From: Crossaster papposus
Lineage: Eukaryota > Echinodermata > Asteroidea > Velatida > Solasteridae
Length of the DNA stretch: 64,000 bases
NCBI GenBank assembly: GCA_037893245.1
Contig: JBAIAA010000238.1
Coordinates: forward strand, 62,001 to 126,000
Direction of reading: 5' to 3'
Position 1 is the stretch's first letter. Each line of letters opens with the position of its first letter. A model generated the notes under the pieces. That model had not been told where the DNA came from, made no database searches, and saw only the letters and a program-made list of their open reading frames with translations. This document shows positions 572-62,599 of the stretch, piece by piece. The position numbers and the translations under genes are program-made.

Positions 572-2826
572 GTATGTCGTAAAACATGTAGGTCTACATA
601 ACAGCGACGTGATATCGTCCTACCGTTTTCACGAATGGAAGAGCCTCGCGTGGATTTTGAAGAAAGCTTGAAGCGTTTTCGTAGATAATCGGAAGAGTAT
701 TATCTCCTTTTAAAACTGCCAAAAATTGCAGTAAGTAAACCTTCACATGATTCTATGAGCGGTTAATTTTTACATGAACCCAGTAATTAGAATCAAAATA
801 GTGAGGAAAAATCGAAATCGAAAAAAATAATAATTGTTAAAATGTGTGGCTCTTCGTGAAAACGGTGACGATATTAAAGTCCATTAAGAATTAACAAGTA
901 CCCAGACATTTTGTTAATGGCAATTTGTTTATGGGGACTCTAACTACCTCCCATAAATAAATTGACTAAAATCAACCTTGGGGAAACATGTTAATTATTT
1001 GTTTTAAATGCACAATGTATATTAAAAGGCACGTATTTTCGACACCTAAGGCACCATTTCAAAATTCGGAAGTGGGAACGGAAAGATAGCGGAACTCCTA
1101 CTTCGGATCCTGTCTGATCTATCGATAAGGCGAACGAAGTGGAACATAGAAGCCTAGTGTTTGGTGGTCAGGAGTATATTACATAGGGTTATAATAAATT
1201 GCGCTATGTATCCAAAGATCAACCGGCTGGTAAAGGGTTTTGACTGGTGTCTTTTTTACAGGTTTTTAAAAAGTTTTTTGCACTATTACATTTTGTGTAT
1301 GTAGTTTTAATTTTGTTATTGTATTTTTCATTGTTTGTTTGTTGTTGTCTTGTTAATTTACGTGCTGTTTTTTGTTGTTGTTTTTGTGTTTGTCCTGTCT
1401 TGTTTTGTCTTGCAGGATATGTTCTTGTTTTATGTTTTGTCTCGTGTTGTGCATTGTCTTGTCTTGTTTGTTTGTTTGGTTTAGTTGTGTGCTTTTGTAT
1501 CCTGACTTGTGGGGCATTGTGTCGTGTCTTGCTTTGTTGTTTGTCTTGTCTTGTTCTATTTTTTTTTTAAGAATATTTTTAAAGTCTTATATAATGTGCA
1601 ATGTTAATGTTTTAATTTTTAATTTTATAATTTTATTTTCACAATTTGATGTGGGGTGACAGGTCTTTGACCATAGTGATTGTTATAACTTTTGTTTTCT
1701 CAATGCCCATCTTTATTGTGATATCGTTCTTTATGGCATGAATATAATAATAATAATAACATCTAAAAATAATAACAATTTGTTATTGTCATTTATTAAT
1801 TTTACAGTTTACGAGTTGCCCGTATCTACATCCATCAGTGTTGCCACTGCTTGAAAGATCTTTCAACGTCTTGAAAGATTATATGTAAAATATATGTGAA
1901 TGTACATGTATTTTATTAAGTTTATACTCGGTCGTGTATTGATTTACTGAGACTTGAAAGATCTTTAAAGATGTTGATTGCTAATCTTGAAAGAAAGAAA
2001 AATAACAAGTGGTCACACTGACCTCCATACCCGTACGTACTGTTAGTCGAACGTCGTTAATGGTTCAATCACAAAATGGCAACAAGGCTACGGTTATTGC
2101 GAAGTCTAACAATGAATTTTGGAGCACATTTTTGATTATTTTTTAATGATAGTGTATTGAATTACAACTAACAAACCGATAAAGACGTCAATATCATCAG
2201 TTATTTCGACTGGATGTAAACAAACATTGCGTAACATCGAGCGGAAGATAATTTTTGCAAACACAAATTCAAGCATCGCTTGAGGGCGCAATAATGACTT
2301 GCTCATGACTTCGACTGTGCTCATACAAATATTCACTTGAATTACTATACGCGCGATGCTCATTAATATTTTGTGATCTCTCAGATAGTTTTGAATAAGG
2401 GGTCCCTGTGGCCTATACATGGGACTGATTGTAGAAGTGTTTGTGGAGATCAAGTATTTGTGACTTGTGTCTTCCAACTGGGAAAATTGTATTCACACAC
2501 AAAAAAAGACCAACATGTGGGTATATTTTGCACAGAGGCAGAAGGGGAGAGGGGGGTGGGGGGGGGGGGGGGGGGGGTGGCCCACATTTAGACTTGGGCC
2601 CAAAGATTGACGACCATTTGAGGGTTTTTTTGGGGGGAGGGGAATATAATTTTGTTGTAGTAAGTCAACCCTAGTGAAATTGAAATGGAAATTGCTCTAG
2701 GGGTCTTAATCTTTAATTTTCAGTGAAAAATACATTGCCAGTCTACCACTGAGCGTCGCGAGGCGGCGCTGTTTCAGTCTGATTTTGCGTTGTTTCCTAC
2801 CGGCGCGTATTTGGTGTGTGTAGTGC

Positions 2827-2857
2827 GTGTACCCCACAGACCTGTCTGTGGTGTACC
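2827..2857. other. Probable P-type transposon excision footprint
   Basis: Two copies of GTGTACC (2827-2833 and 2851-2857) flank the 17-nt sequence at 2834-2850, which is a back-to-back pair of transposon ends (CCACAGAC and TGTCTGTG, with a C between). The intact P-like elements at 8356-13206 begin with CACAGACAT and are bounded by GGTGTACC. The site therefore looks like a target duplication plus residual ends left after the element was lost. The same footprint stands at 8325-8355 beside the occupied site. The call is inferred from structure. Confidence 0.6.
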
Positions 2858-3796
2858 CATCACACGCGCAAAATTCACAGCGCCACCCACAGTTCAAGTC
2901 TGGCCAGTTCACTTGTCCGATAGCAACTTAGCCGACTCGCCCCTTGGATAATTGTTCCATTTAATTAATCCTAACTCCCTAAGGTGTGTGCAAAATCATA
3001 TCGAATTTGAAGGATTTGGGAGGGTTAGGGTCGTGAGTGCTCATCCCGTTTGTGTGTAGTTTGAGTTACATGTGTTTTTAAGTCCATAATTTTGTGTGAC
3101 TTAAAACAAAAATAAGTCCCACATGCGCGCTGTTTTGCCCTCATATAACAAATGAAAAGACGATGTAAACTTTTCCCTTGATTAATTCTCATGCATGATC
3201 TCGATTATTTTTTTATCTGAGCTTTAGAAAATACCTTTTCCAAGATGTTCGTTTCAATCCACTTAATTGATTTCGGCCAAAAAAAGAATTTTGATTGAAA
3301 AAATATTGATTTTTGCAAAACATTGATTCTTGCCCGATTTGTCCCTTGTACATGCATTTTATGTAGGCTTGAAAAAAATATTATTAGACCAACTAATTCT
3401 CCCATGCTGTTATGATGTAAATTAATGACAAAGCAGTAGGCCTAAATCCTCGAAGCCCCAAAAGTTAAACTAAAAACTATTTATTTATACATATACATAC
3501 ACAACAAAATTGGGGAGGGGGGTAATCAAGCACCTTGGAGTGTTTCCCCCTGAATTTCCAAAGTTGCTTATTAGCAATTTCTTATTATCATGTATAACAA
3601 CTTAAGCAACTCGTAGAGAAAGCAATTGCTATTTTGTATGTATTTGTCCCAGTGTCCGAGTGATTATCAGTCCCTGATGAACACTTTAATCGGTTCCGAC
3701 CCATACATTACACATTGATCACTTGTAACCACAAAGGGTACATGTCATTAATACTGCACTCTCCTAATACCACCTAACTGGTCCGTTGCACGAGGG

Positions 3797-5965: not shown

Positions 5966-8061
5966 GTCCGAAGAGGTGGCCAGCAAGTCTTCCACTCCTT
6001 GCTAAACGGAAGCTGTCGGGTTAGACGTGTACGAGGAGTTGTCGGATTATCGACAAGTGTTTCGTCCACAGGTGGTTTCGTCCGGTTGGACGAACGGAGA
6101 GTTGTCCGGTATACAGGGCCTCGAAGCGTCGGAGGAGTTGGAAGTGAAGATAATAACAAAAAGTTTAAGAAGTTTTGGTCAACAATTTTTTCTGAGTTGC
6201 TAATAGCTGCAACCAAATTGGCGGCCCGAATGCCTCGTGTTCCGGGTTAAATACCCAAATTCTTCGGACTGTCTTTTCTTCTCATTGGTCAAGGTAGGAT
6301 ATCTTCAGTTCTTCATTGGTCAATCTTTCCTATTAATTTGCATATCTACCAGATATAACCTTATATGGTAAGGAATTTATTTTCCCCCATCTTCTTGAGC
6401 AACCTTCTAAACGACCAAGCCACGTTTCTTAAAAGTTAAAATATACCCGTCCTAAGGGGAGGGGGTGGGGTGCTATTATTGCTGGTTGTGCAATTTTTCA
6501 GAACGACCTTAGAAACGTTTTGCCTACGACGCAAAAAAGAGTTTAGGCTTTATGTGCCCCAAGTATAACGTATTTTATATTTTATGGATAAAATTAATTT
6601 TTGTTGTTGTCTTTGTGTTTGTCCTGTCTTGTTTTGTCTTGCAGTATATTTTCTTGTTTTATGTTTTGTCTCGTGTTGTGCATTGTCTTGTCTTGTTTTG
6701 TTTGTTTGGTTTAGTTGTGTGCTTTTGTATCCTGACTTATGGGGCATTGTGTCTTGTCTTGTTTTGTTGTTTGTCTTGTCTTGTTCTATTTTGTTTTTTA
6801 GAATATATATATAAAGTCTTATATAATGTGCAATGTTAATGTTTAAATTTTTAATTTGATAATGTTATTTTCACAATTTGATGTGGGGTAACACTCTTTG
6901 ACCATAGTGATTGTTATAACTTTTGTTTTCTCAATGCCCATCTTTATTGTGATATCGTTCTTTATGGCATGAATATAATAATAAAAATAATAACACAATA
7001 TAATAATATTAATAGTTTATTATTGTCATTTATAAATTGTACAGTTTACGAGTTGCCCGTATCTACATCCATCAGTGTTGCCACTGCTTGAAAGATCTTT
7101 CAATATCTTAACAGATTATATGTAAAAGTATATGTGAATGTACATGTATTTTATTAAGTTACACTCGGTCGTGTACTGATTTACATAGGCTTGAAAGATC
7201 TTGAAAGATATTGAATGCTGATCTTGAAAGAAAGAAAAATAACGAGTGGTCACACTGACCTCCATACCCGTACGTACTGTTAGTCGAACGTCGTTAATGG
7301 TTCAATCACAAAATGGCAACAAGGCTACGGCTATTGCGCAGTCTAACAATGAATTTTGGAGCACATTTTTGATTATTTTTTAATGATAGTGTATTGAATT
7401 ACAACTAACAAACCGATAAAGACGTCAATATCATCAGTTATTTCGACTGGATGTAAACAAACATTGCGTAACATCGAGCGGAAGATAATTTTTGCAAACA
7501 CAAATTCAAGCATCGCTTGAGGGCGCAATAATGACTTGCTCATGACTTCGACTGTGCTCATACAAATATTCACTTGAATTACTATACGCGCGATGCTCAT
7601 TAATATTTTGTGATCTCTCAGATAGTTTTGAATAAGGGGTCCCTGTGGCCTATACATGGGACTGATTGTAGAAGTGTTTGTGGAGATCAAGTATTTGTGA
7701 CTTGTGTCTTCCAACTCGGAAAATTGTATTCACACACAAAAAAAGACCAACATGTGGGTATATTTTGCACAGAGGCGGAAGGGGAGGGGGGGGGGGGGGG
7801 GGGGGGCCCACATTTAGACTTGGGCCCAAAGATTGACGACCATTTGAGGGTTTTTTTGGGGGGGAGGGGAATATAATTTTGTTGTAGTAAGTCAACCCTA
7901 GTGAAATTGAAATGGAAATTGCTCTAGGGGTCTTAATCTTTAATTTTCAGTGAAAAATACATTGCCAGTCTACCACTGAGCGTCGCGAGGCGGCGCTGTT
8001 TCAGTCTGATTTTGCGTTGTTTCCTACCGGCGCGTATTTGGTGTGTGTAGTGCGTGTACCC

Positions 8062-8322
8062 ACTGACCTCAACACCTGGACAGATCATTGTCCATATTCT
8101 GCTGTGCTAACACTTGAAGTCGGCGCGAACTGGAAGTGCAACATGGCGTCACTGCTGTGAGCCAATGAAATGTCCAGTTGTAGAGGTCAGTGGATTTACC
8201 AACCAACTGAACTCTACACCTGGACATTTCATTGGCTCACAGCAGTGACGCCATGTTGCACTTCTCTGCATGCCGACTTCAAAATGAAACAATGGAGGAT
8301 CTGTCCATGTATAGAGGTCAGT
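8062..8322. mobile_element. Foldback MITE with 10-bp target duplication
   Basis: Nearly the whole 261 bp is one palindrome. The ends are ACTGACCTC and GAGGTCAGT, and the inner arms at about 8125-8180 and 8211-8265 contain the same ATGGCGTCACTGCTGTGAGC in opposite orientation. It is flanked by GCGTGTACCC at 8052-8061 and 8323-8332. Copy 1 (2825-2834) has a single such site. A 9-11 bp duplication suggests a Mutator-like origin (inference). Confidence 0.8.
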
Positions 8323-8355
8323 GCGTGTACCCCACAGACCTGTCTGTGGTGTACC

Positions 8356-8885
8356 CACAGACATATAAACACATAGACCGCCAGGTCCTATTCAAAACTA
8401 CAGGATGATTTCGTGATTTCGCGGCGCCCGACTAAAATACCAACTATGGGCAAATTTAGCCCTCGGTATAGGGAATTTGTACACACCCGAACTGTTCCAG
8501 TCAAATAATTATATGAAGCCATTTATCGATTTAAAAGAAAATTACATAGGGCTATACTATATACCATGTAGATTAAGCATAACCAGTGTCAATCTTGATA
8601 CCCTAAAATAAAGAAGTTTTAGGCCCATTTTTGTGTCAAGCGCGTTGCCCGGTATGCGCACAGAACGTAAAAAAGCGCGGTGCGTTGCCCGTCGAACGAA
8701 ATATAGTGTACACAATTATATGAACGCGCGTGCAAAGTGCGTTGCATGATAGACGCGTAATTGTACGCGCTTGACTTTTTATAGCCACACGCGCTTGCCG
8801 TCCAGCCTACGCGTCGTTTTGCCCATACTTTGCAAATCACGGTTTTGTGCACACGACTGGCGGTCTATAGGTTTATATGTCTGTG
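8356..8885 (-). mobile_element. P-like MITE, left flank of composite element
   Basis: The sequence runs from CACAGACATATAAACACATA to a complementary ATGTCTGTG end. It is bounded by GGTGTACC at 8348-8355 and GGTGTAC at 8886-8892. It is an inverted copy of 12677-13206. The minus-strand frame at 8619-8852 is shared with that copy but shows no domain. Confidence 0.75.
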
Positions 8886-9789
8886 GGTGTACCACAGACA
8901 TAAATAACCTATAGACGGACAGCAGGGGGCGCCAGAGTGAAATTTCATGAACGCCGCCATTTTTAAAAAATCGTGGGCAAATTGTTTGGTAGGCATCATC
9001 ACACAGTCGTTAGTCGACGGTCCGGTGGCGAGTTCCTCGAAGAAAACTAACACAGAGAAGGGTAATATGCAGCATTATTTTGTTTCTTTTATATATTAAA
9101 ACAAACCTGATGAAGTAAACAAGTAGTTTTAAGGAAATGTAGGCAACAATTTTCATGATTTGTTGGGATTTTGTAAACTGCCGACGGTCACACACAGTGT
9201 ATCGGCATGATGTATACTTTCAAGTTACAGAAAAGGTTCCATTAATAGTCTCACTATTGTTTATACTGATTAGAGGATTAACATGCATATCATGCCCAGC
9301 AGTATGTGTTTGAACTTGTTGGTCCTTTCTGAGTGAAAAACTCTTGGGAATATCTCTATGGGTTGTCTTTCTCTTTACATCTGATTGAATTCCACAGTAA
9401 AGACACTTTCACTCATTCCACGAAGACTGTCCCGTAATTGACTTGCACAGTCGTTAAACAGTTCATACAGGGGAGATTTGCCATTTAAATTATAATTTAA
9501 AGAAGCATGGCAATTGTTGTTAATGTAAATGCAAAATATTTTACTAATCAGGTGCATGGGCTCTGTCCATTTCTTTGTTTTAAACATTTGCTAAATTTTG
9601 TTTTTGCATCTGAAGTCAATTAGGCTACACTTACAATGTAAATGTAGATTGAAGGAACTTTAATTTAATTTGTATTGAAGAAATAGTCAAAATGAAATAT
9701 AAATAATACCTGTGTAACCATTCCCAACTTCCTAGGGTGTGTGCAAAATCATACAAATTTGAGTGTTAGGGTAACATTTAAAGACAATG

Positions 9790-10069
9790 CATAACTTTAA
9801 AAAAAGCTTTCCTTTGTACTATTCACACCTTAGACTGAAAGCCTCTTGTGAAATCCTTGTTGAGCACGTGACAGAATATCAGAAGGAGGTACTGTACGTC
9901 AAGTTTGCAACCACATTGCACTTCTACTCACCCAGAGCCTACATGTATGAAGCCACATCCAGTGCCCTATGTGACTACTCTGCGCTCCTGGGTTATGAAT
10001 ATCGGTGCTCTACCGGGAACCAGGTTTATCACAGCATGCACTTAACTATTTGGAAATGAGACCTTCCAG
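9790..10069 (+). pseudogene. P-element transposase-like exon (decayed)
   Basis: The frame includes FATTLHFYSPRAY, matching the conserved P/THAP9 transposase motif around LHFYSPKAY. The following homologous part continues only in another frame (ISVLYREPGLSQHALNYLEM), with in-frame stops between. The segment ends at a usable donor (CCAG then GTAGGG, intron from 10070). Known P transposases bind the transposon ends and cut and rejoin DNA; this copy is broken by stops and frame changes. Confidence 0.6.
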
Positions 10070-10463
10070 GTAGGGGTCTTTTTTATATTTTGGCTAAATA
10101 TTCCGAAAATGATTATGTTGAACATTTTAAGAAGATATACTTGACCAGAGTAATAAGGCTTAAAGATTACCCACTTAGCTTTCTACCCTGTTGCCCCATT
10201 ATTAACAGACCAGTGCTATGCCCTGTTGTTTTAGATGAAAATATATCAGCCCTGGATAAATTACTGGACATAATGAAATGTCAAATGAAGCCGTTAAAAG
10301 AAATTTCATACTGTAAAGATAATTTTCCAATGATTGAATAGAAACAAATTAATTCTTGTTCAAATCTTGCACCTACGACTGATAGATCAAGATGGTTCAA
10401 TAAGCTTAGGTCATAAATAATTCACATAATTCCTTCAAACAATGTCTTTTGTTGTATTTACAG

Positions 10464-10705
10464 GTTGCTGCTCTTGTAATAGACAGCATGCATGTTAAGC
10501 AGCATGTCGATGATGACCAAGGTCTCAAGCGAGCATTTTGCTACGTTGACTTGCCGGGTAGCTCGACAGAAGAAGATAGTGAACAGGCAGCTATAAAGAG
10601 GTTCTTGTCATCATGTTTGTTGGGCTGCATGGTCATTTGAAACTCCCTAGTGAGGGATACAATTCATCCAGTGACAAGCCTTCAACCTGCGTGTGCCGTA
10701 TGTCA
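10464..10705 (+). pseudogene. P-element transposase-like catalytic-region exon (frameshifted)
   Basis: A clear acceptor (TTGTATTTACAG) precedes VAALVIDSMHVKQHVDDDQG, which resembles the RNase H-like strand of P/THAP9 transposases where the first catalytic Asp sits (LVIDSMHV). A cytosine-thymine-rich slip near 10600 moves the conserved continuation (MFVGLHGHLKLP-type) into another frame. The original function would be DNA transposition; this copy is inactive. Confidence 0.6.
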
Positions 10706-11487
10706 GTTGTGAATGGACTGAGCGCAACATGAAATAAATAAATGACTTCTGCAGGCTTTTTGGATTTTGATGAAACTTTGATGCAGTGACTTGTACAATT
10801 ACGGAGGTCGAAGGTCATGTACAGGCCATTGGATGTCGTTGTTAAAACATGCTCCAAGTGTTTCTTTGTCTACAGAATTTGATACAAAACCTTTGGAATC
10901 CAGGGGTCATTTGAGGTCATTGACTAAAAATGACTTTTAAGAACACAAAACATATAAGAATCGACTGCAGGAAAAGTAGGTCAGGTAGCCACCAGACTGA
11001 TAAAAAGGCCGACACGCGTGATCTGAGGATCACTTGCTCTTTTACTAAATTACTAAATTACTTTTACTAAACTGGCTATTTTGTCTACATAAGGTTCTTT
11101 AGGGTATATGTCACTGCCATTAAGGCCGAACTAACATTGTAAATGGTTACATTTGATGATTCAAATGTATTTTCAGCAATATGTGGAATTATGCTGTTTT
11201 TACTTTTGGATTTTGTTCTTGTGGTTTCAATTTTTTTTCTGAGGCTATTTTAATTTGTTTTTATTTATCATAAAGCCAAAACGTGTTTATTTGTGTATAA
11301 AAAGAACTGGTTTACTTTGTAAATTTATTAAAAATATATAACAGTCATAATAATTTGTGTACAGTTGTATAATGTACTGTATAAAATATTTGGTGGAATG
11401 TTTCACAGTATGTAATTAGTATGTACAGAGACCTCAAAATAATATGTTTTGCATTTTATTTAAATTCACCTAGAAAGAAAAATTGAA

Positions 11488-11780
11488 ACGTGGATATTTA
11501 GCCGGCGCTGGCTACCTCAGTAAATGCTATTTAGCTATCCGGGTTGTACAGTGCCTGCCCCTGTACATTATAAGGTATTACATCACCACTAGAATACAGT
11601 GGAAAGCGTATGAAAATACAGTCCGAAATTGTAAAAAACAAATGAAGTCTCAACGACAATGTTGGTGCAGAACCAGTAAGTAAGATTTGTTATGGAAATA
11701 AAAGGCACTGCGCATGTTCAGTACCTAAACAAAACTATAGCATTTACTGATGTCTAGTGGGCACCGGCTAAATATCAACT
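11488..11780. repeat. Short TIR element inside the P-like transposon
   Basis: GATATTTAGCCGGCGCTGG at 11492 is complementary to the GGCACCGGCTAAATATC near 11760-11778. The roughly 290 bp between has no domain. The call is tentative because the ends are imperfect. Confidence 0.4.
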
Positions 11781-11879
11781 GGCATGCAAGAAGAATACAT
11801 ACATGTACAAATATTTGTGTACAAACATCATGTACATTGTACCCCTAACCCCCTAGGCCCTTTTTGCTAGCAACCGTCT

Positions 11880-12235
11880 TCAATCCTTCAAAAATTCTCA
11901 TTTTTTAATAACCCTAGTATTTAGCCTCAATCCTCAAAAATCCTCCACACTTGAAACCAACAGTGTCTCAATTCTCAAAAATCCTCATTTTTAAACAATA
12001 CCATTCATACTCAATCCTCAAAAATCCTTTAAAACTGCAATGAGGATTCTGGAGGATTGAAAAAAGTAAACACCCATTCAGCCTCAATCCTCCAAAATCC
12101 TCCACACTTTAAACAACATTGTGCCTCAATCCTTTCCAAACTCCTCATTTAAAAAAAATACCATTCATCCTCAATCCTTAAATCCTCCAAAACTGCAATG
12201 AGGATTTTGGAGGACTGAGCAGCGTTAGGGTTAAT
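11880..12235. repeat. CTCAATCCTCAAAAATCCTC-type degenerate repeats
   Basis: At least five related pieces of TCAATCCTCAAAAATCCTC alternate with inverted forms (GAGGATTTTGGAGGA). The stretch can fold into several local hairpins. There is no coding content. Confidence 0.6.
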
Positions 12236-12676
12236 TGCATGGTAGTTTAGGGCCTATAAAGTTAGTGGTCATGTATAACCAGATCGCTGACTGCGATTGC
12301 GTAGGCCTAGCCTATGACATGCCTATGCGCTATGGATATGTGCGCGCGACGGCGTGGTACGGTCGAGACGGTGGCTCAAAGTTATAATTTATGTAAGAAC
12401 TCATTCTTTTTTACAACAAAATACATATTCATAACTATGCAGCATTATATAGTTAACAGCTGAAAGTATTTTTAGTCGACATCAGCTGCGTTATCCACCA
12501 AAATTACCGATTTTTGTCCGTCCTCCCGAAATTTGTCCATAGAGTCGTGCACATTTTTCAATCACTTCCGCCCACGATTTTGTGATTAGTCAGGCGCCGT
12601 CGAAATTACGGTACCTGGACGTTGATTTCCATAGGCGCTGTCCGTCTATAGGTTATTTATGTCTGTGGGGTGTACC

Positions 12677-13206
12677 CACAGACATATAAACCTATAGACC
12701 GCCAGTCGTGTGCACAAAACCGTGATTTGCAAAGTATGGGCAAAACGACGCGTAGGCTGCACGGCATGCGCGTGTAGCTATAAAAAGCCAAGCGCGTATA
12801 ATTACGCGCCTATCATGCAGCGCACTTTGCACGCGCGTTCATATAATTGTGTACACTATCTTTCGTTCGATGGGCAACGCACCGCGCGCTTTTTACGTTC
12901 TGTGCGCATACCGGGCAACGCGCTTGACACAAACATGGGCCTAAACGTCTTTATTTGGGGGGATCAAGATTGACACTGGTTATGCTTAATCTACAAGGTA
13001 TATGGTATAGCCCTATGTAATTTTTTTTTAAATCGATAAATGCTTTCATATAATTATTTCACTGGAACAGTTAGGGTGTGTACAAATTCCCTATACCGAG
13101 GGCTAAATTTGCCCATAGTTGGTATTTTAGTCGGGCGCCGCGAAATCACGAAATCATCCTGTAGTTTTGAATAGGACCTGGCGGTCTATGTGTTTATATG
13201 TCTGTG
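12677..13206 (+). mobile_element. P-like MITE, right flank of composite element
   Basis: This is an inverted copy of 8356-8885. It starts CACAGACATATAAACCTATA and ends TATATGTCTGTG. GGTGTACC lies at 12669-12676 and 13207-13214. Copy 1 of the segmental duplication continues directly across the outer junction. Confidence 0.75.
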
Positions 13207-13565
13207 GGTGTACCCATCACACGCGCAAAATTCACAGCGCCACCCACAGTTCAAGTCTGGCCAGTTCACTTGTCCGATAGCAACTTAGCCGACTCGCCCC
13301 TTGGATAATTGTTCCATTTAATTAATCCTAACTCCCTAAGGTGTGTGCAAAATCATATCGAATTTGAAGGATTTGGGAGGGTTAGGGTCGTGAGTGCTCA
13401 TCCCGTTTGTGTGTAGTTTGAGTTACATGTGTTTTTAATACGTTTGAGGCAAATAAAGCTTCAAATAATTTATCCCCGCGGGACAGTTTGCAAGGCTTTG
13501 ACGGAACTAGAGTTTGGTCAATTCAGGTCACTCCCCTTGTGGTCGGATTGATTTATGGATATGAA

Positions 13566-13841: not shown

Positions 13842-14359
13842 TGTTAGCGGAGCCAGAAAGGAATTTTCCCCTTTTTTTCCCAATGTGGTTTTGAGGGGGT
13901 TTTCGCCTTTCTTAGAATCGGCAAGGTTACTAACTGCGGGCGGAAATTGCATTCCAATAGCGCAAATAGGCCTCAAAGATTGGCCAATAAAACCTTAATT
14001 TAAGAGGCTTCAGGGAATTTGCGGCAAAAGCACTTAACCCTCTTTCTTTGTCGGTTCCAAGATGAAATCGGAACACGGTAGTTGCAGTCCCTATATGTTT
14101 ACCACATTCGCTGATTGATATTTTGATTATTGCATTTCTTACTTATTGCCGACGATAATAATAGCTTAAGGTATTGCTTGTGCTACTTGGCCACTACGGT
14201 ATTGATTAATGGTTATATATGATATGATTTGCTTTGATAAAATGTCATAATATTGCTTGCTAATGAATATGGCATCGTATGTGCGGATGATGCTATTTAT
14301 ATCTGAATTATTTGGATTATGGTAATTGCAGATCTGTGTCACAAACTGTGACATCATTG

Positions 14360-14545
14360 CTAAATTTAATTGCTGTTTGCGTCACAAACTGTGACAATAT
14401 TGCTGAATATAAATTGCTGTTTGCGTCACCAACTGTGACAATATTGCTGAATGTAATTGCTGTTTGCGTCACAAACTGTGACAATATTGCTAAATATAAA
14501 TTGCTGTTTGCGTCACCAACTGTGACAATATTGCTGTTCCCCGAC
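14360..14545. repeat. 44-bp tandem repeat, about four units
   Basis: Units start with TTGCTGTTTGCGTCAC near 14370, 14414, 14457 and 14501 (periods 44, 43, 44). Each contains GTCAC(A/C)AACTGTGAC, an internal inverted repeat. Alternate units share the same A/C variant, so the array may have grown by doubling an 87-bp pair. Confidence 0.85.
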
Positions 14546-19900: not shown

Positions 19901-22900
19901 TACGGGCCTGACTTCGGTAAGTCGACTTGGCAATATATTACATGTATCTCGAAAAGTAATTTTCTCGACTTCGTTAAGCTGGGAGCACACGACACGCAAG
20001 CTTTGGCGTTGACTGGCGTTTTTTGCCGCAATTGTTGGCTGCCAGCGGATCCTGGTCAGAGCACACGACGCTTTTTCTTGCGTTCACTGGCGTTGAAGCG
20101 CGTTCACGCTCGTCAAAAATCAAACATGTTAGATATCTGGCGTTGAGTTGCGGCAAGTAGCGGCAAGTCGCTTTCTCCAACGCGCGTTCGTAGCACACGA
20201 GGAATTTTAAAAGGCGTTCAGGACTGTTGCGCCAAAAAAAACGCCAGTCAACGCCAAAGTTTGCGTGTCGTGTGCTCCCAGCTTTAGGACGACTTGGCCG
20301 ACCACCCGTAAACTCGAATCAAGGCAGCTGCGACTTGGGTACTCGTCTTGTTGGTTAGTGGTTCGGTCTCTTTATATCAAGTCGCCAAATCCACGACGGT
20401 CAGCGCGTACTAAACAGGTCAAAAGAAATAAGTCCCCCCTGGGAAATTTGCATTTTTTCTGGAAGACAGTTAGACTCCTTATCCTGTTACAAAAATGTAA
20501 AATGTAGTCTGAAATGTTACACATTTATTGTGTAAAAGAGTTTCACCCAACAGTTAACTTCGCCTTGAAATGCTGCCATTTATTAAATGTGATGACCAAC
20601 ACAAAATGACACTTTCTTGCATAGGGATTGGACAAATGGAGAAAATTATGTTTTTACAGAATCTTTTAATATTCTTTCCTCACTTCAATTAATTTTCCTA
20701 AAGTGTACAAATGTAAACATGCATTTAATGTTTTTGTTTTTGTTTTTAATTTTTTTAATTTACGAAGTACAGTAAATTAGAGTCACTCAAGCAAAACACT
20801 TTTTTTAGAGCATAAAGGTTTTGTGAAAATGGAAAGTTGTTTTTGTTGGTCCTTTCGTTTCAGTAATAAAATTAAAAACAAAACCCCAACATTTTTATGC
20901 ATGTTTACATGTGTACACTTTAGAAAAAATTAATTGAAGTGAGAAAAGAATATTAAAAAATTATGTAAAAACATGATTTTCTTCATTTGTCCAATTCCTA
21001 TGCAAGAAAGTGTCATTTTGTATTGGTCATCACATTTAATAAATGGCAGCATTTCAAGGCGAACGTTAACTGTTGGGTGAAACTTTATTGCACAATAATT
21101 GTGTAACATTTCAGACTACATTTTGCATTTGTGTAAAGGTTGAGGAGTCTAACTGTCTTTTTACCGATCTATAGGTTAAACATAAGGTCGACCTGATGCA
21201 TTTTGTTGGGAAATTCCGTAGATCTATTGAAACTCATGGGTCGAGAAACGTACGTGGGAGACGGCAGATACATTTGCCACGATTCGGATTTGATTAGAGG
21301 GATGTATAGATAAGAATACGACCGTACTACTTTGTGTATAGTGTGGCCATGTATAGGTGGGATTACAATCATATAGTTGGTGGCAACTTGCTGGATTGTA
21401 TGTACAATTCAGCATTATTATGCACATAAGTTGCGGTCACGACAATTCATAGGAGTTACACCGCGTTCACACTTGATCCTGCTATAGGAGGATCAAAGGA
21501 GGATCTGATCTCGAAAGGGCGATCAAAGGGAGATCACTGGCTAGTGTGAACGCGATCAGGATCAGGATCAGATCCTCCTTTTTGATCTCCCTTTATTGCG
21601 AGATCAAATGGAGACACAAAACGCGACACAAAAATGCTTGATCTCGCTTTCGGGATCTGATCCTTCTTGGATCCTTGTAGGAGGATCAAGTGTAAACGCG
21701 GTGTAAGTTGCTTAGACCAAAGCTCTATGCTCAGACACAATAGGTCGGATTAGAAGCGCGTGCATGCTGCTGCGTACATGTTAAAAGTGTTAAGAGTAGG
21801 TCCACGTAAATATTTCATATAAGTGTCCTCGGCATTTTTTATTTTTTTGTTTAATATAAAAGGACTTTGTAATCAAGTAACCAACATTGATATATTTTTT
21901 TTTTCTATGGCCCGTTGCCATGGAAACAGGCCATTTTGTGTTTTGGGCATTTTTAGCCAGTTTTGGGGCCGCAAAAACATTTTTTTAGCTTATTTAAAAA
22001 CAAAATCACCCAGCCAAAATACAAATTTTATCACAAAATCAACTATATCATTAGAAAGTATCATCCTTGCCCTTACCTGAAAAACAAAACATGTTTTAAA
22101 TGTCACCCTTATGCCAGTTTTATAACATGCATTAAAGCATGTTTTCTCGTCCATTATTTGCACGAATCTACAGTTTATCGTCCATTCTCCTTGACATAAT
22201 GTTTTAGTTCACAACAAGTATTGTTTCCCTTTTTTATATGCCACTAATAAAATGTTATTAGAAAATGGTATGTAAGAAATGTTCTGAAGGGGATTTTCAT
22301 GAAAATATTATTGTTTGTGTGTACTATTACTTCAAACTGAAGAAAAAGCTCAAATTTCATTGTGTTGTTGTTTTTATGGGAGAATGACCATTTTTGATGC
22401 AGTACTGCCTTAAGAGGATACAATCCCCCAATCTTTTGTCACCAGATATGAAAAGACCAATGTTGGCTCTAATTAAATCCAAAAGGAAAATATTATGAGA
22501 CCCCTGGCAAGTTGACTTTTTGATGGACAAACATTAGAATTTTACAAGTTCTGAAAACATGCTTTAATACACAAAATGGCCTGTTACCATGGCTAATTGC
22601 CGTAAACAAAGTTCATTTTTGGTTACTTGCTTACCAAGTCCTTTAATACTAAAAATTAAAATATTTAAGTGGACCCACTCTTTGTAATGATATAGTTAAT
22701 TTTGTGATAAAATTGTGTATTTTGGCTGGGTGATTCTTTTAAAATAAGCAAAAAAGGTTTTTGCGGCGGCCCCTAAACTGGCTAAAAATGGCAACGGGCA
22801 ATAGAAAAAAAATATATAAAAAAATGGTTACTTGCTTACCAAGTCCTTTCATATAAAAAAAAATAATGAAAAAATGCCGAGGACATTTATATGAAATATT

Positions 22901-25900
22901 TACGTGGACCCACTCTTAAGAGTGGGTCCATGTAAATATTTCATATGTGTCCTTTGCATTTTTGTATTATTTTTTTATATGAAATTATAGGTTTTTCCTA
23001 TATTTCATTTAAAAGGATGCTCCGTTGCATCAGCATTCAACAGTCAAAAGGAGTAATTCCATAGTCAGAGCACACGACGCTTTTTCTTGCGTTCACTGGC
23101 GTTGAAGCGCGTTCACGCTCGTCAAAAATCAAACATGTTAGATATCTGGCGTTGAGTTGCGGCAAGTAGCGGCAAGTCGCGTTCTCCAACGCGCATTCGT
23201 AGCACACGAGGAATTTTAAAAGGCGTTCAGGACTGTTGCGCCAAAAAAACGCCAGTCAACGCCAAAGTTTGCGTGTCGTGTGCTCCCAGCTTTAGGACGA
23301 CTTGGCCGACCACCCGTAAACTCGAATCAAGGCAGCTGCGACTTGGGTACTCGTCTTGTTGGTTAGTGGTTCGGTCTCTTTATATCAAGTCGCCAAATCC
23401 ACGACGGTCAGCGCGTACTAAACAGGTCAAAAGAAATAAGTCCCCCCTGGGAAATTTGCATTTTTTCTGGAAGACAGTTAGACTCCTTATCCTGTTACAA
23501 AAATGTAAAATGTAGTCTGAAATGTTACACATTTATTGTGTAAAAGAGTTTCACCCAACAGTTAACTTCGCCTTGAAATGCTGCCATTTATTAAATGTGA
23601 TGACCAACACAAAATGACACTTTCTTGCATAGGGATTGGACAAATGGAGAAAATTATGTTTTTACAGAATCTTTTAATATTCTTTCCTCACTTCAATTAA
23701 TTTTCCTAAAGTGTACAAATGTAAACATGCATTTAATGTTTTTGTTTTTGTTTTTAATTTTTTTAATTTACGAAGTACAGTAAATTAGAGTCACTCAAGC
23801 AAAACACTTTTTTTAGAGCATAAAGGTTTTGTGAAAATGGAAAGTTGTTTTTGTTGGTCCTTTCGTTTCAGTAATAAAATTAAAAACAAAACCCCAACAT
23901 TTTTATGCATGTTTACATGTGTACACTTTAGAAAAAAATTAATTGAAGTGAGAAAAGAATATTAAAAAATTATGTAAAAACATGATTTTCTTCATTTGTC
24001 CAATTCCTATGCAAGAAAGTGTCATTTTGTATTGGTCATCACATTTAATAAATGGCAGCATTTCAAGGCGAACGTTAACTGTTGGGTGAAACTTTATTGC
24101 ACAATAATTGTGTAACATTTCAGACTACATTTTGCATTTGTGTAAAGGTTGAGGAGTCTAACTGTCTTTTTACCGATCTATAGGTTAAACATAAGGTCGA
24201 CCTGATGCATTTTGTTGGGAAATTCCGTAGATCTATTGAAACTCATGGGTCGAGAAACGTACGTGGGAGACGGCAGATACATTTGCCACGATTCGGATTT
24301 GATTAGAGGGATGTATAGATAAGAATACGACCGTACTACTTTGTGTATAGTGTGGCCATGTATAGGTGGGATTACAATCATATAGTTGGTGGCAACTTGC
24401 TGGATTGTATGTACAATTCAGCATTATTATGCACATAAGTTGCGGTCACGACAATTCATAGGAGTTACACCGCGTTCACACTTGATCCTGCTAGGAGGAT
24501 CAAAGAAGGATCTGATCTCGAAAGGGCGATCAAAGGGAGATCACTGGCTAGTGTGAACGCGATCAGGATCAGGATCAGATCCTCCTTTTTGATCTCCCTT
24601 TATTGCGAGATCAAATGGAGACACAAAACGCGACACAAAAATGCTTGATCTCGCTTTCGGGATCTGATCCTTCTTGGATCCTTGTAGGAGGATCAAGTGT
24701 AAACGCGGTGTAAGTTGCTTAGACCAAAGCTCTATGCTCAGACACAATAGGTCGGATTAGAAGCGCGTGCATGCTGCTGCGTACATGTTAAAAGTGTTAA
24801 GAGTAGGTCCACGTAAATATTTCATATAAGTGTCCTCGGCATTTTTTATTTTTTTGTTTAATATAAAAGGACTTTGTAATCAAGTAACCAACATTGATAT
24901 ATTTTTTTTTTCTATGGCCCGTTGCCATGGAAACAGGCCATTTTGTGTTTTGGGCATTTTTAGCCAGTTTTGGGGCCGCAAAAACATTTTTTTAGCTTAT
25001 TTAAAAACAAAATCACCCAGCCAAAATACAAATTTTATCACAAAATCAACTATATCATTAGAAAGTATCATCCTTGCCCTTACCTGAAAAACAAAACATG
25101 TTTTAAATGTCACCCTTATGCCAGTTTTATAACATGCATTAAAGCATGTTTTCTCGTCCATTATTTGCACGAATCTACAGTTTATCGTCCATTCTCCTTG
25201 ACATAATGTTTTAGTTCACAACAAGTATTGTTTCCCTTTTTTATATGCCACTAATAAAATGTTATTAGAAAATGGTATGTAAGAAATGTTCTGAAGGGGA
25301 TTTTCATGAAAATATTATTGTTTGTGTGTACTATTACTTCAAACTGAAGAAAAAGCTCAAATTTCATTGTTGTTGTTTTTATGGGAGAATGACCATTTTT
25401 GATGCAGTACTGCCTTAAGAGGATACAATCCCCCAATCTTTTGTCACCAGATATGAAAAGACCAATGTTGGCTCTAATTAAATCCAAAAGGAAAATATTA
25501 TGAGACCCCTGGCAAGTTGACTTTTTGATGGACAAACATTAGAATTTTACAAGTTCTGAAAACATGCTTTAATACACAAAATGGCCTGTTACCATGGCTA
25601 ATTGCCGTAAACAAAGTTCATTTTTGGTTACTTGCTTACCAAGTCCTTTAATACTAAAAATTAAAATATTTAAGTGGACCCACTCTTTGTAATGATATAG
25701 TTAATTTTGTGATAAAATTGTGTATTTTGGCTGGGTGATTCTTTTAAAATAAGCAAAAAAGGTTTTTGCGGCGGCCCCTAAACTGGCTAAAAATGGCAAC
25801 GGGCAATAGAAAAAAAATATATAAAAAAATGGTTACTTGCTTACCAAGTCCTTTCATATAAAAAAAAATTATGAAAAAATGCCGAGGACATTTATATGAA

Positions 25901-28900
25901 ATATTTACGTGGACCCACTCTTAAGAGTGGGTCCATGTAAATATTTCATATGTGTCCTTTGCATTTTTGTATTATTTTTTTATATGAAATTATAGGTTTT
26001 TCCTATATTTCATTTAAAAGGATGCTCCGTTGCATCAGCATTCAACAGTCAAAAGGAGTAATTCCATAGTCAGAGCACACGACGCTTTTTCTTGCGTTCA
26101 CTGGCGTTGAAGCGCGTTCACGCCCGTCAAAATTCAAACATGTTAGATATCTGGCGTTGAGTTGCGGCAAGTAGCGGCAAGTCGCGTTCTCCAACGCGCA
26201 TTCGTAGCAGCCGAGGGATTTTTCAGGCGTTTAGAACTGTTGCGGCAAGAAACGCGAGTCAACGCCAAAGTTTGCGTGTCGTGTGCTCCCAGCTTTAGGA
26301 GGACTTGGCCGACCACCCGTAAACTCGAGTCAAGGCAGCGGCGACTTGGGTACTCGTCTTGTTGGTTAGCGGTTTGGTCTCTTTATATCAAGTCGCCAAA
26401 TCCACGACGGTCAGCGCGTACTAAACAGGTCAAAAGAAATAAGTCCCCCCCCCCCCCTGGGAAATTTGCATTTTTCTGGAAGACAGTTAGACTCCTTAAG
26501 CTGTTACAAAAATGTAAAATGTAGTTTGAAATGTTACACATTTATTGTGCAAAAGAGTTTCACACAACAGTTAACATTCGCCTTGAAATGCTGCCATTTA
26601 TTAAATGTGATGACCAATACAAAATGACACTTTCTTGCATAGGGATTGGACAAATGGAGACAATTATGTTTTTACAGAATCTTTTAATATTCTTTCCTCA
26701 CTTCAATTAATTTTCCTAAAGTGTACAAATGTAAACATGCATTTAATGTTTTTGCTTTTGTTTTAAATTTTTTTAATTTACGAAGTACAGTAAATTAGAG
26801 TCACTCAAGCAAAACAATTTTTTTTAGAGCATATGGGTTTTGTGGAAATGGAAAGTTGTTTTTGTTGGTCCTTTCGTTTCAGTAATAAAATTAAAAACAA
26901 AACCCCAACATTTTTATGCATGTTTACATGTGTACACTTTAGAAAAATTAATTGAAGTGAGAAAAGAATATAAAAAAATTATGTAAAAACATGATTTTCT
27001 TCATTTGTCCAATTCCTATGCAAGAAAGTGTCATTTTGTATTGGTCATCACATTTAATAAATGGCAGCATTTCAAGGCGAACGTTAACTGTTGGGTGAAA
27101 CTTTATTGCACAATAATTGTGTAACATTTCAGACTACATTTTACATTTGTGTAACAGGTTAAGGAGTCTAACTGTCTTTTTACCGATCTATAGGTTAAAC
27201 ATAACAGGTCGACCTGATGCATTTTGTTGGGAAATTCCGTAGATCTATTGAAACTCATGGGTCGAGAAACGTACGTGGGAGACGGCAGATAAATTTGCCA
27301 CGATTCGGATTTGATTAGAGGGATGTATAGATAAGAATACGACCGTACTACTTTGTGTATAGTGTGGCCATGTATAGGTGGGATTACAATCATTATAGTT
27401 GGTGGCAACTTGCTGGATTGTACGTACAATTCAGCATTATTATGCACATAAGTTGCGGTCACGACAATTCATAGGAGTTACACCGCGTTCACACTTGATC
27501 CTGCTAGGAGGATCAAAGAAGGATCTGATCTCGAAAGGGCGATCAAAGGGAGATCACTGGCTAGTGTGAACGCGATCAGGATCAGGATCAGATCCTCCTT
27601 TTTGACCTTCCTTTATTGTGAGATTAAATGGAGATCAGATCCCGCAAAGGCGATCAAAAAACAAGTGTGAACGCAGATCGAGATCAGATCCTGCAATTTA
27701 AGCTGCTCACACCCGGTGTGTCAGGTCATTAAAAACAAACCGCGAAACAAGAAATTGTAAACAACGCTTTGCCTACCACCTGTCATCGTCCGTGGCCGGC
27801 CAACGCACCCAGACGCTGTGTAATGTATATGGGAGATTGCAACGTACGTGTGTCGCCGTATCGTTTACACACATGTACACCAAATAAAAAAAGGGCGCGA
27901 CGCAACGAACAAAACAACATGCGCGCGCACAATCAATGACCTCGCACAGTAACCTTTGCCGTCAGCTGAACTGAACTTCCGTTTAACTATGCGAGATCAA
28001 TGCGAGATCACACTCAAGTGTGAACGCGGTACAAAAATGCTTGATCTCGCTTTCGGGATCTGATCCTCCTTGGATCCTTGCAGGAGGATCAAGTGTAAAC
28101 GCGGTGTAAGTTGCTTAGACCAAAGCTCTATGCTCAGACACAATAGGTCGGATTAGAAGCGCGTGCATGCTGCTGCGTACATGTTAAAAGTGTTAAGAGT
28201 AGGTCCACGTAAATATTTCATATAAGTGTCCTCGGCATTTTTTTTGTTTGTTTAATATAAAAGGACTTTGTAATCAAGTAACCAACATTGATATATTTTT
28301 TTTCTATGGCCCGTTGCCATGGAAACAGGCCAATTTGTGTTTTGGGCATTTTAGCCAGTTTTGGGGCCGCAAAAACTGTATTTTAACAAAATCACCCAGC
28401 CAAAATACAAATTTTATCACAAAATCAGCTATATCATTACAAAGTATCATCCTTGCCCTTACCTGAGGGAAAAATGTTTTAAACGCCACCCTTTTGCCAG
28501 TTTTAGAACATGCATTAAAACATTAATTATTGCACGAATCTAGTTTCTCGTCCATTCTCCTTGACATAATGTTTTAGTTCACAACAAGTACTGTTTCCCT
28601 TTTTTATATGCCACTAATAAAATGTTATCAGAAAATGGTATGTAAGAAATGTTGTGGAGGGGATTTTCATGAAAATATTATTGTTTGTGTGTAGGCCTAC
28701 TATTACTTCAAACTGAAGAAAAAGCTCAAATTTCATTTGTGTTGTTTTTATGGGAGAATGACCATTTTTAATGCAGTACTGCCTTAAGAGGAAACAATCC
28801 CCCAATCTTTTGTCACCAGATATAAAAAGACCAATGTTGGCTCTAATCAAATCCAAAAGGAAAATATTCTGAGACCCCTGGCAAGTTGACCTTTTGATGG

Positions 28901-34242: not shown

Positions 34243-34380
34243 GGCCGTCACAAAATTAGGTGGCGGCCGCTAGATAAATGATACCAAAAATATTCTCGCG
34301 CGTTACTTTGCAAAAAATATATTCATCAGTATCCAGTGGCACTATCCATCTTCCGTAATAAACTGATATTGATGTTTTTT

Positions 34381-34738
34381 TTAAAGGTAGGAAACACCAT
34401 TGGTAATTGCTTGAATTATCATGAATGAGTAGATTTGGGGGGTTGTATTTTATAGTAAACATCGTTTAACTGAGCTGTCCAAAGTTTTAAAATCATGGAT
34501 GCCGAGAAAAGCACGAAAAACAGCGGGTTTTTTCAACCGGCGTCACGAGCAGTTATTGTTATGTTATCTTTGTTTTTTCGCGATCGCCGTCAATTTTTCG
34601 GAATAATTACAGGATATCTAGCGCAATAATTTTGCTGGATGCCTAGAATCATTATTTACTTTCAAATGAGTAAGATATTTCCTAATAATTCGGTAGTAAA
34701 TATTTTCGATATCTGCAAATGGTGTATACTACCTTTAA
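34381..34738 (+). mobile_element. TTAA MITE family A (full length)
   Basis: Bounded by TTAA on both sides. It is the duplicate of the copy at 215-571, with a few substitutions. Confidence 0.85.
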
Positions 34739-35851
34739 GTATGTCGTAAAACATGTAGGTCTACATAACAGCGACGTGATATCGTCCTACCGTTTTCACG
34801 AACGGAAGAGCCTCGCGTGGATTTTGAAGAAAGCTTGAAGCGTTTTCGTAGATAATCGGAAGAGTATTATCTCCTTTTAAAACTGCCAAAAATTGCAGTA
34901 AGTAAACCTTCACATGATTCTATGAGCGGTTAATTTTTACATGAACCCAGTAATTAGAATCAAAATAGTGAGGAAAAATCGAAATCGAAAAAAATAATAA
35001 TTGTTAAAATGTGTGGCTCTTCGTGAAAACGGTGACGATATTAAAGTCCATTAAGAATTAACAAGTACCCAGACATTTTGTTAACCGAAACAAATTGTAA
35101 TGGCAATTTGTTTATGGGGACTCTAACCACCTCCCATAAATAAATTGACTAAAATCAACCTTGGGGAAACATGTTAATTATTTGTTTTAAATGCACAATG
35201 TATATTAACAGGCACGTATTTTCGACACCTAAGGCACCATTTCAAAATTCGGAAGTGGGAACGGAAAGATAGCGGAACTCCTACTTCGGATCCTGTCTGA
35301 CCTATCGATAAGGCGAACGAAGTGGAACATAGAAGCCTAGTGTTTGGTGGTCAGGAGTATATTACACGTGGTTATAATAAATTGCGCTATGTATCCAAAG
35401 ATCAACGGGCTGACCACTTGACAACATGTGGTAATGGTTTTGACTGGTGTTTTTTTACAGGTTTTTAAAAATGTTTTTAGCACTATTCAATTTTTTCATG
35501 TACAGTTTTCATTTTTTTCTCATTTTTCATTGTTTTGTTGTTGTTGTCTTGTTCATTTAAGTGCTGTTTTTTATTGTCGTCTTTGTGTTTGTCCTGTCTT
35601 GTTTTGTCTTGCAGTATATTTTCTTGTTTTATGTTTTGTCCCATGTTGTGCATTGTCTTGTCCTGTTTTGTTTGTTTGGTTTAGTTGTGTTCTTTTGTAT
35701 CCTGACTTATGGGGCATTGTGTCGTGTCTTGTTTTGTTGTTTGTCTTGCCTTGTATTTTTTTCGAATAAGTATAAAGTCTTTTATAATGTGCAATGCTAA
35801 TGTTTTAATTGTATAATTTTATTTTCACAATTTAATGTGGGGTGACAGGTG

Positions 35852-36336: not shown

Positions 36337-36929
36337 TATTATTGTCATTTATTAATTTTACAGTTTACGAGTTGTACTATTAGCCGAACGCTAACGTCGT
36401 TAATGGTTTATTCACAAAACGGCAACAATCCTACGGCTTTTGCGCAGTCTAACCATGGTCTAACAATGGATTTTTGGGCACATTTTTGATTATTTTTTAA
36501 TGATAGTGTATTGAATTACCAGTACAACTAACAAACCGATAAAGACGTAAATATCATCAGGTATTTCGACTGGCTGTAAACCAGCATTGCGTAACATCGA
36601 GCGGAAGATAATTCATGTAAATTCCTACGTCATAATTTTGCTAACACAAATTTAAGCATCGCCCACCACAGACATAAGTGGTGCACAAGTAGTACACAGA
36701 GCTCTGGTCAGTGGTGTGATGTCTGTGGTGTGCACACATTACGCGCAAAATGCACAGCGCCACCCACAGTTCAAGTCTGGCCAGCTCACTTGTCCGATAT
36801 TGCAACGCCAGCTAGTTGTTTATCACACGCGTGAGTACGAGTGTCGACTGCAGAGTATACCATAGATAAATTATAATCACTGTGGCCAAAATTACGGTGC
36901 GACAGCGAGTGCGAGATAAGATCATCCCC

Positions 36930-57308: not shown

Positions 57309-57505
57309 GGGTTCTTTTCAATAAAAACCTGTCTCTGGAATTCCGTGGAATTCCACCGTTGCTAAGAGCCAACCATCCGTGGACTCTGCAGACATCAGTT
57401 TATTCATGCCTGACCAAATGAGCCTTCTAGTCTCTTAACTAGCCTATAACTACGAACAATATTTGGTCTGCAGAGTCGGCAGATAGCCCTTATTGAAAAG
57501 AACCC
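57309..57505. mobile_element. 197-bp MITE with TTA target duplication
   Basis: GGGTTCTTTTCAATAA at the left pairs exactly with TTATTGAAAAGAACCC at the right. TTA is at 57306-57308 and 57506-57508. PIF/Harbinger-like. It ends 59 bp before a helicase exon, close to the branch-point region. Confidence 0.85.
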
Positions 57506-57564
57506 TTATACATTTTGTGTGTATTGGACTAATTTTTTATTTCACACTATCAAATGGTCCACAG

Positions 57565-57798
57565 ATGTGCACGACATCAAGTTTGTCATAAATTATGACT
57601 ATCCCACTTCCTCGGAGGACTATGTTCACCGCATTGGACGAACGGCCCGTAGCGAGAACACCGGCACGGCGTACACGTTTTTCACAGCCAACAACGCCAA
57701 GCAGGCGAACGAGTTGATCGCAGTCCTTCAGGAAGCCAAACAGAAGGTTCACCCGAAGCTGATACAGCTGGCCCAGAGTTCTCGTGCGTTTGGTAAAG
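57565..57798 (+). CDS. Helicase exon: domain 2 with motif VI
   Basis: The acceptor ATGGTCCACAG precedes AT GTG CAC GAC. The first codon's G must come from an upstream exon (Asp of the usual ARGLD). The donor is AAAG then GTGAGA. All motif VI residues (HRIGRTAR) are intact, so this exon looks functional. Confidence 0.93.
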
Positions 57799-62153: not shown

Positions 62154-62254
62154 TCCTCGAGTAGCCAATTTTGTTTTAACTACATCTTCTCGTACATGTA
62201 ACTTTTCAGAAGATTAAATCGAAGGTTTTTGAATGTCGCTTGGGAATTTGTATT

Positions 62255-62596: not shown

Positions 62597-62599
62597 ATT

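Follow-up and report, generated by a model that had tools for sequence, protein, structure and literature searches.

How did a block in which two copies of a miniature inverted-repeat transposable element (MITE) flank a P-type element, with the same 8-mer at its borders, come to lie at positions 8348-13214 of a 64,000-nucleotide stretch of Crossaster papposus DNA? Here, the whole stretch is called the window and its contig C238, and other contigs of the 1.02-Gb assembly are numbered in the same way. Our analysis indicates that the block quite probably arose by at least three independent, successive insertions in which P-superfamily elements entered a single site following an earlier excision, with existing junctions re-used according to register. 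The order of the parts is MITE1, P-type element and inverted MITE2, and the ends CACAGACAT..ATGTCTGTG are found on all three:

8348-8355, forward strand: left target duplication of MITE1, GGTGTACC
8356-8885, forward strand: MITE1, 530 bp, ends CACAGACAT..ATGTCTGTG, A end on the left and B end on the right
8886-8893, forward strand: right target duplication of MITE1, GGTGTACC, overlapping the left duplication of the P element
8885-8892 and 12668-12675: target duplication of the P element, GGGTGTAC
8893-12667, unstranded: 3775-bp element of the P superfamily, its terminal inverted repeats perfect over 31 bp and its transposase decayed
9820-10056, forward strand: transposase fragment, Pfam PF12017 Tnp_P_element, E 3.7e-6, 27.7 bits against a cut-off of 23
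10464-10637, forward strand: transposase fragment, weak PF21787 TNP-like RNase H N match, E 0.0016, under the curated cut-off
12669-12676, forward strand: left target duplication of MITE2, GGTGTACC
12677-13206, reverse strand: MITE2, inverted relative to MITE1 and 95.5% identical to it
13207-13214, forward strand: right target duplication of MITE2, GGTGTACC, which also serves for the array as a whole

It can be observed that every part has a perfect 8-bp duplication beside its CACAGACAT terminus, namely GGTGTACC for both MITEs and GGGTGTAC, shifted by one base, for the P element. The 8-mer GGTGTACC, which starts at 8348, 8886, 12669 and 13207, has six matches in the window compared with 1.07 expected, and 0 of 100 shuffles gave as many as six; six of the eight matches to CACAGACAT in the window (0.5 expected) are located at block borders. 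The initial annotation had described two inverted MITEs of about 530 bp around a decayed P element, with common ends and one 8-mer at four borders, and our results agree well with that description; regarding the P element, which it placed at 8893-12668, the left end is correct but the right end lies at 12667, one base shorter. Since the P element sits one base off the MITE register, the junction spacers are 7 and 9 bp rather than 8. Removal of the P element together with one of its duplications leaves MITE1-GGTGTACC-MITE2, a junction palindrome of 38 bp.

No open frame of at least 120 amino acids is present in the P element, the coding region of which is decayed; its place in the P superfamily is given by the duplication on both sides and the P-type transposase domain PF12017. 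Approximately 20 related matches longer than 2.4 kb, at 91-98% identity, were found besides the one on C125 among the best 40 of 3,593 candidates. The MITEs also lack a frame of at least 120 amino acids and have CACAGACATA in common with the P element, as expected of MITEs. Near-identical copies of MITE1 are numerous, with 43 of the 48 matches listed ahead of weaker ones at 98-100%. The 530-bp pieces exist elsewhere as free-standing MITEs with 8-bp duplications of their own, which disposes of the possibility, raised in the initial annotation, that they are the ends of one larger element.

Paralogous sequences, within the window and on C125, give a clearer picture of the earlier history of the site:

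1369-3081, forward strand: paralogue A, a tandem copy of the insertion site with the footprint only and no MITE-P-MITE block
2827-2858, forward strand: GTGTACCC-CACAGACCTGTCTGTG-GTGTACCC in paralogue A, a 16-bp palindromic remnant between 8-bp repeats
8053-8331 with duplications, unstranded: CACTGACC-ended hairpin MITE (8061-8323), possibly two inverted units
8325-8355, forward strand: the 16-bp footprint again, in copy B, with GTGTACC on its right overlapping the GGTGTACC of MITE1
36667-36727, forward strand: another paralogous flank, the third, in which a 61-bp remnant CACAGACAT..ATGTCTGTG precedes GTGTGCAC

Paralogue A is 95.6-99.6% identical to 6598-8069 and 13199-13438 (copy B), and cutting 8356-13214 from copy B yields paralogue A 2833-2882 exactly over the 50 bases compared, which bears out the earlier report of an insertion-free paralogue near 2857. 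Four uninterrupted near-identical paralogues, A and three on C125, are present among the best 40 scored candidates. A single MITE occupies GGTGTACC in the paralogue at C238:33.3k (both ends read, interior unread), and the P element is alone at GGTGTACC in the paralogue at C5:787k. As a direct ancestor of MITE2 the C238:33.3k MITE is unsupported, being missing among the best 40 candidates for either MITE. The 16-bp remnant is a putative excision footprint of an earlier P-type element, its sequence being compatible, and only compatible, with a P-type 17-nt staggered cut. Such a cut inside the ends, together with dependence on guanosine triphosphate (GTP), is described for the Drosophila P element (PMC7776569). 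The CACTGACC-ended MITE, with its target duplication CGTGTACC on both sides (8053-8060 and 8324-8331), is lacking in both paralogue A and C125. C125 carries a copy of the block with 99.93% identity over 5.8 kb including the right flank, into which a 4.78-kb P-type element with CATTG ends has been inserted between MITE1 and P. Its target duplication, GGTACACC, is GGTGTACC on the opposite strand, and its domains are those of the P superfamily: THAP (PF05485, 5e-12), Tnp_P_element (PF12017, 1.5e-17), RNase H (PF21787, 2e-51) and GTP-binding (PF21788, 4e-47).

What the transposase prefers as a target was read from 41 single P or MITE insertions with both flanks read, a set that excludes the single-ended copies L032, L033 and L056 and all array loci. 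An exact 8-bp duplication is present in 39 of them; the two with mismatched duplications were dropped for the consensus, and a further three, repeats of CTCGCCAT, for the matrix, leaving 36 sites. One fit used 35, a site within a CACAGACAT-like end being dropped. Symmetrised over the 39 sites, the consensus RTGn-GTTnnAAC-nCAY is loose and palindromic, the 8-mers vary, and core position 8 is C in 55% and A in 3%. The 8-mer GGTGTACC is a fair match to this loose target and no fixed site; a fixed preference for it was considered and rejected on these 39 sites. Base composition differs as well, with a guanine-plus-cytosine (GC) content of 0.51 at insertion sites and 0.38 in the window. A general preference for hairpins is possible but is not accepted: in the 39 joined empty sites the GC-adjusted folding gave P = 0.06 and stem length P = 0.27, and stems of at least 9 occurred in 4 of 39, two with arms of 35-36 bp, compared with 4% of the background. 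The site CTCGCCAT, part of a palindromic repeat that has 272 exact half-sites, received 4 of the 41 single insertions in places without any CACAGACAT end, and its insertion rate per copy exceeds that of a resident end. The repeat in question is a palindromic element with ends TAGTCTTTGGGCAAGACG, found as short hairpins and as forms of about 2.3 kb (L129-L138; C5, C7, C18, C48, C54, C74 and C82), the arms of which contain the site struck four times by P and MITE elements. Separately, the 8-mer AGTGGAAC recurs as a target of P, MITE and CATTG elements on C195, C553, C573, C734 and C804; at C734 it reads AGCGGAAC on one side, and its flanks are alike in C553 and C573 and unlike in the others read.

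Arrays of the same kind are found at dozens of other places in the assembly. The exact pattern of two ends separated by 8 bp occurs at 8 loci and in the reversed control at none, and ends facing each other 4-24 bp apart occur at 59 loci, compared with 1 in the control. Among 50 listed of these 59, the spacing was 5 at 8 loci, 7 at 11, 8 at 7, 9 at 17 (six being one repeated junction on C798) and 10-18 at 7, so that 43 of the 50 lie at 5, 7, 8 or 9; a spacing of 4 or 6 was seen at none of the 50. After 8 of the 50 rows had been merged as related copies, with palindromic-pattern matches on both strands counted once, 35 of 42 remained at these four spacings (P = 4e-19 against uniform spacing). 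Moreover, the outer 8-mer equals the inner one, and differs by locus, at C152 (CCAAATAC), C1024 (GTCGCAGC), C195 (AGTGGAAC), C354 (GGTGCGAC), C794 (TTCAGAAC), C1407 (GGTCTCAC), C5:3.47M (GGGGGTTC), C267 (GCCGTACC) and C605 (ATCAAAAC), while at C579 and C777 inner and outer 8-mers are consistent as far as read. This agreement within most arrays read, and difference between them, favours insertion beside an existing end, one of the two origins first proposed for the block. The outer flank was readable at four of the eight listed spacing-5 places (C5:3.47M, C18, C267, and C130 with its reverse copy C1407), and at all four the newer duplication consists of 5 bases of the older one plus the CAC of its end. 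Places with MITE1 were multi-element in 9 of 40 listed, C258 among them, or 7 of 38 after merging of related contigs, in a list that may favour places with two copies. Adjacent MITEs, judged by eye, stand B to B at five loci (the window before P, C152, C1024, C579 and C354), A to A at two (C1407/C130 and C267) and in direct orientation at four (C777, C5:3.47M, C120 and C797), and no constraint on orientation was seen among the loci so read. The C258 pair is direct with an 18-bp spacer, and the C246 junction is unclear.

The register of these junctions follows largely from the target preference. A 16-position matrix learned from the 36 un-nested insertions was run across the junction formed by a single-site flank and the end CACAGACAT. 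Mean weights were highest at spacing 7 (28.4), followed by 9 (10.0), 5 (9.9) and 8 (6.1), and lower at 1 (3.8), 3 (2.6) and 10 (1.2), with a background of 1.28. At 4 and 6 the weight is 0.0, because the A of the end falls on core position 8. At spacing 5, the CAC of the end supplies the last three core letters. For spacings 5, 7, 8 and 9 the matrix predicts 6.4, 18.4, 3.9 and 6.5 loci, where 8, 10, 7 and 10 were observed, and it predicts 0 at 4 and 6. The log-likelihood was -59.4 for the matrix (-57.2 when cross-validated), -70.1 for uniform spacing and -114.3 for re-use in the same register only. Of random end sequences tested against a third of the sites, 4.3% fit as well as the real end. 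The spacing prediction held under cross-validation and also when the background was made flat and a further site was left out. The end sets the register; the summed score does not support any special quality of the end as a target.

A second P-type family, the CATTG elements, takes part in the same junctions. Both ends were read in 15 CATTG copies, 10 of which show an exact 8-bp duplication, mostly of the GT..AC kind; of the others, one differs by one base, two on C482 have exchanged duplications, and those on C877 and C83 have none. Scored with the matrix derived from the CACAGACAT family, these 10 sites reach the 94th percentile on average. At C825 a CATTG copy is located inside the end of a CACAGACAT MITE. 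The site GTTGTTTC was entered by a MITE on one contig and by a CATTG element on another, the right flank being the same at both places. Junctions in which CACAGACAT and CATTG ends face one another 4-24 bp apart number 11, the C125 element contributing two; the spacing is 5, 7, 8 or 9 in 8 of the 11, and the control has 0. At C415, a P end that is slightly shortened and a MITE are separated by a 32-bp CATTG footprint, with GTGTAGCC common to all. Facing CATTG ends occur at seven loci, a small number, with spacings 8, 8, 9, 9, 4, 13 and 20; the order expected from the matrix is 8 > 9 > 7 > 5, with next to nothing at 4. Two further observations concern this family. On C482 (892443-897224 and 958501-963285; L089-L092), two CATTG elements in inverted orientation, separated by about 66 kb, have swapped their target duplications, which may be the signature of inversion by recombination between the elements or of a mis-joined assembly; such inversions with exchanged duplications are described for Galileo in Drosophila (PMC2775673). 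At C674 (L123), a CATTG end lies 9 bp from a AGAGATCAGTG end, reading ..ATCAGTG-GGTACGGTC-CATTG, and the latter end looks like the CACTGACC family of 8061-8323.

The history that we propose for the block proceeds in stages. Initially, an element would have entered at GTGTACCC and left again, the 16-bp footprint remaining. During the first stage, a MITE would have been inserted into GGTGTACC, and during the second, another MITE, inverted, into one copy of the target that the first had duplicated. Subsequently, the P element would have entered one base off the centre of the 38-bp palindrome formed by the facing MITE ends, and in the C125 copy an element of another P-type family would finally have been added. 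The sequences are compatible with this order, which is itself reconstructed from them. The transposase presumably favours the loose palindromic target RTGnGTTnnAACnCAY, if the living enzyme reads its target as the sites suggest. Every insertion would then duplicate the 8-bp core and place a P-type end (CAC/GTG) against it, and in certain registers the end would provide the outer target letters (CnCA or CAY) or the last core letters (AC). The junction would thus remain a usable target, to be re-used at shifts of 0, +1, -1 or +3.

Several results weigh against successive insertion governed by register, or narrow it. With 1,538 ends in the genome (24 in the control), 0.0022 places at spacings 5, 7, 8 and 9 are expected under uniform placement and 0.024 under the matrix, and 35 were seen. 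Spacings of 11-24 are themselves about 765-fold above uniform, and the register contrast of about 20-fold (10.6 in the matrix) stands on top of that; the excess at 11-24 requires a local effect that is not tied to register. The matrix gives too much weight to spacing 7 (18.4 compared with 10 seen), and the counts at 7 and 9 are partly coupled, as an element that enters an 8-bp junction creates both a 7 and a 9. The model also permits spacings 1 and 3, for which a search of 0-3 yielded 1 and 0 loci, with 1 in the control as well. The summed score of the real end, 54, lies within those of random ends (median 23, 90th percentile 79), and base composition may underlie part of the matrix, sites being 51% GC and the window 38%. 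The CATTG junctions fit in part only, with 4 of 7 at 8 or 9, one at the forbidden 4 and two far away at 13 and 20. Finally, C120, C556 and C111 show no simple match between inner and outer flanks, and C702 has GTGTGCAC on both sides of P but not to the left of the adjoining 78-bp outer unit.

Movement of the whole block as a single composite transposon bounded by the MITEs, the other origin first proposed, is suggested by the outer flanks, which form a single 8-bp duplication of GGTGTACC, and by the inverted MITEs, as in composites flanked by insertion sequences. We regard it as barely credible. Among the best 40 of 3,593 candidates the full block, with its inner junctions, is present only at C238 and C125, which share flanks over the 5.8 kb at 99.93% and so most likely record one event. 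Furthermore, a moved block would carry its inner 8-mer along, and at most loci read the inner junctions repeat the outer duplication of that locus. The locus-specific 8-mers also speak against local duplication, in which the neighbour is made from the resident by sister-chromatid hopping, template switching or gene conversion. Local hopping is known for P elements (PMC7776569) and the neighbours are bases apart, but MITEs are no more alike within loci (97.19%; 12 pairs, 10 loci) than between them (96.95%; 288 pairs), 24 of 25 nested copies have their nearest relative at a different locus, the remaining one being a tie, and MITE, P and CATTG elements are mixed within one array. Local copying is therefore very unlikely.

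More weight attaches to explanations in which the site or the resident end attracts insertions. If a strong original target were simply re-hit in its duplicated core, resident ends adding nothing, one would expect re-use of sites without a CACAGACAT neighbour, as seen at CTCGCCAT and at GTTGTTTC, and exact coincidences such as those of natural and mutagenesis insertions of Drosophila P (178 of 1,226; PMC3276498). The original register, spacing 8, is nevertheless in the minority (7 of 35), and 28 of 35 junctions are shifted by 1 or 3 as the resident end predicts, which makes hot sites on their own a rather unlikely explanation. Tethering, in which end-bound transposase recruits the incoming complex and the consensus merely fixes the base, approaches an even chance and is compatible with successive insertion by register. 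It would account for junction insertions about 1,500-fold over the matrix prediction and for the excess at 11-24 bp. The excess of neighbours from 300 bp to 50 kb around the first 100 listed ends, fading with distance and small in numbers, fits favoured regions equally well, however, and a tether would need to act across families, as CACAGACAT ends are also used by CATTG elements. The local excess may reflect favoured regions, hot sites or tethering. The strong self-targeting first suggested holds insofar as junctions are re-used, but GGTGTACC is not special and the process is not strictly self-directed, since a second P-type family re-uses the junctions and repeats without such ends are also re-hit. 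A better term is re-use of P-type junctions, in registers that depend on both target preference and the sequence of the end, accompanied by a local excess beyond what these explain.

Beyond successive insertion by register, a dual target choice is possible, though on balance doubtful, in which the transposase would use both loose palindromic hot sites and the end-plus-duplication junctions of any resident P-type family. If so, the motif (RTG..8-mer..CAY) would be a relaxed image of the end-spacer-end junction, and each insertion would rebuild and multiply its own target, making arrays self-growing across families. Stacked transposons are easily mistaken for composites or local duplications; here, sequence alone separates all three, and a matrix of insertion sites from simple cases predicts the positions of nested insertions base by base. 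If the proposed history is true, P-type ends would act as regenerating targets that pile up insertions and let P families interact, palindromes and inverted pairs able to recombine would be built, and the register rule would be applicable to any P-type transposase.

Other features of the window were recorded. A 484-nt inverted repeat (46531-47014 and 50691-51174), 97% complementary and 3.7 kb apart, may represent a transposon that has long inverted ends. The interval 20055-28187 contains tandem units of about 3,009 bp, two nearly identical and a third diverged; a minisatellite of about 1 kb with a 12-bp unit, open in several frames on both strands, lies at 38315-39430, and tandem repeats of 43/44 bp with the core GTCACAAACTGTGACAATATTGCT at 14325-14536. 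A dispersed repeat with AAAGGTAGGATACACC or close variants has six copies (206-577, 34372-34744, 42883-43254, 44459-44766, 48996-49398 and 62246-62602). Open frames at 57450-58892 encode a helicase-like stretch followed by an RGG/Q-rich tail, and may resemble a DDX5/17-type RNA helicase.

With regard to known systems, the classic double P insertion at singed is said to consist of two elements in inverted orientation at one site. Our search of the literature, outside which most subscription journals lay, found only the precedents named here for re-use of a target. The present elements resemble animal P elements and P-type MITEs in their 8-bp duplications, inverted ends, P-type transposase domains and MITEs that share the ends of a larger P element. 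Such duplications are described for P elements together with local hopping in Drosophila (PMC7776569) and for P and P-MITEs in Anopheles, where en-bloc movement of tandem P copies has been proposed (PMC1562414); the zebrafish P element Pdre2 (PMC10983969) was also compared. Unlike the present case, the available parts of these texts describe no arrays in which one target duplication is re-used. Galileo, a member of the P superfamily in Drosophila, also has a palindromic target motif that extends beyond the duplication, but the duplication is 7 bp (GTATTAC), and insertions into termini were counted in the part available without being linked to duplication or register (PMC4168063). The closest functional analogue is IS30 of Escherichia coli, which inserts into nearly palindromic hot spots or beside its own inverted repeats; it differs in being bacterial and in its copy-out-paste-in route via joined ends with attack 2 bp apart, and no homology is claimed (PMC9333248). 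By analogy, its dual target choice may be said to be matched here as a pattern only. The composite-like KolobokP transposons are also similar, with repeats that have their own inverted ends around an internal element, and with multimers. Their direct terminal repeats are part of one element, however, and the superfamily target is TTAA (PMC9587614), whereas the flanking MITEs of the present array are independent insertions.

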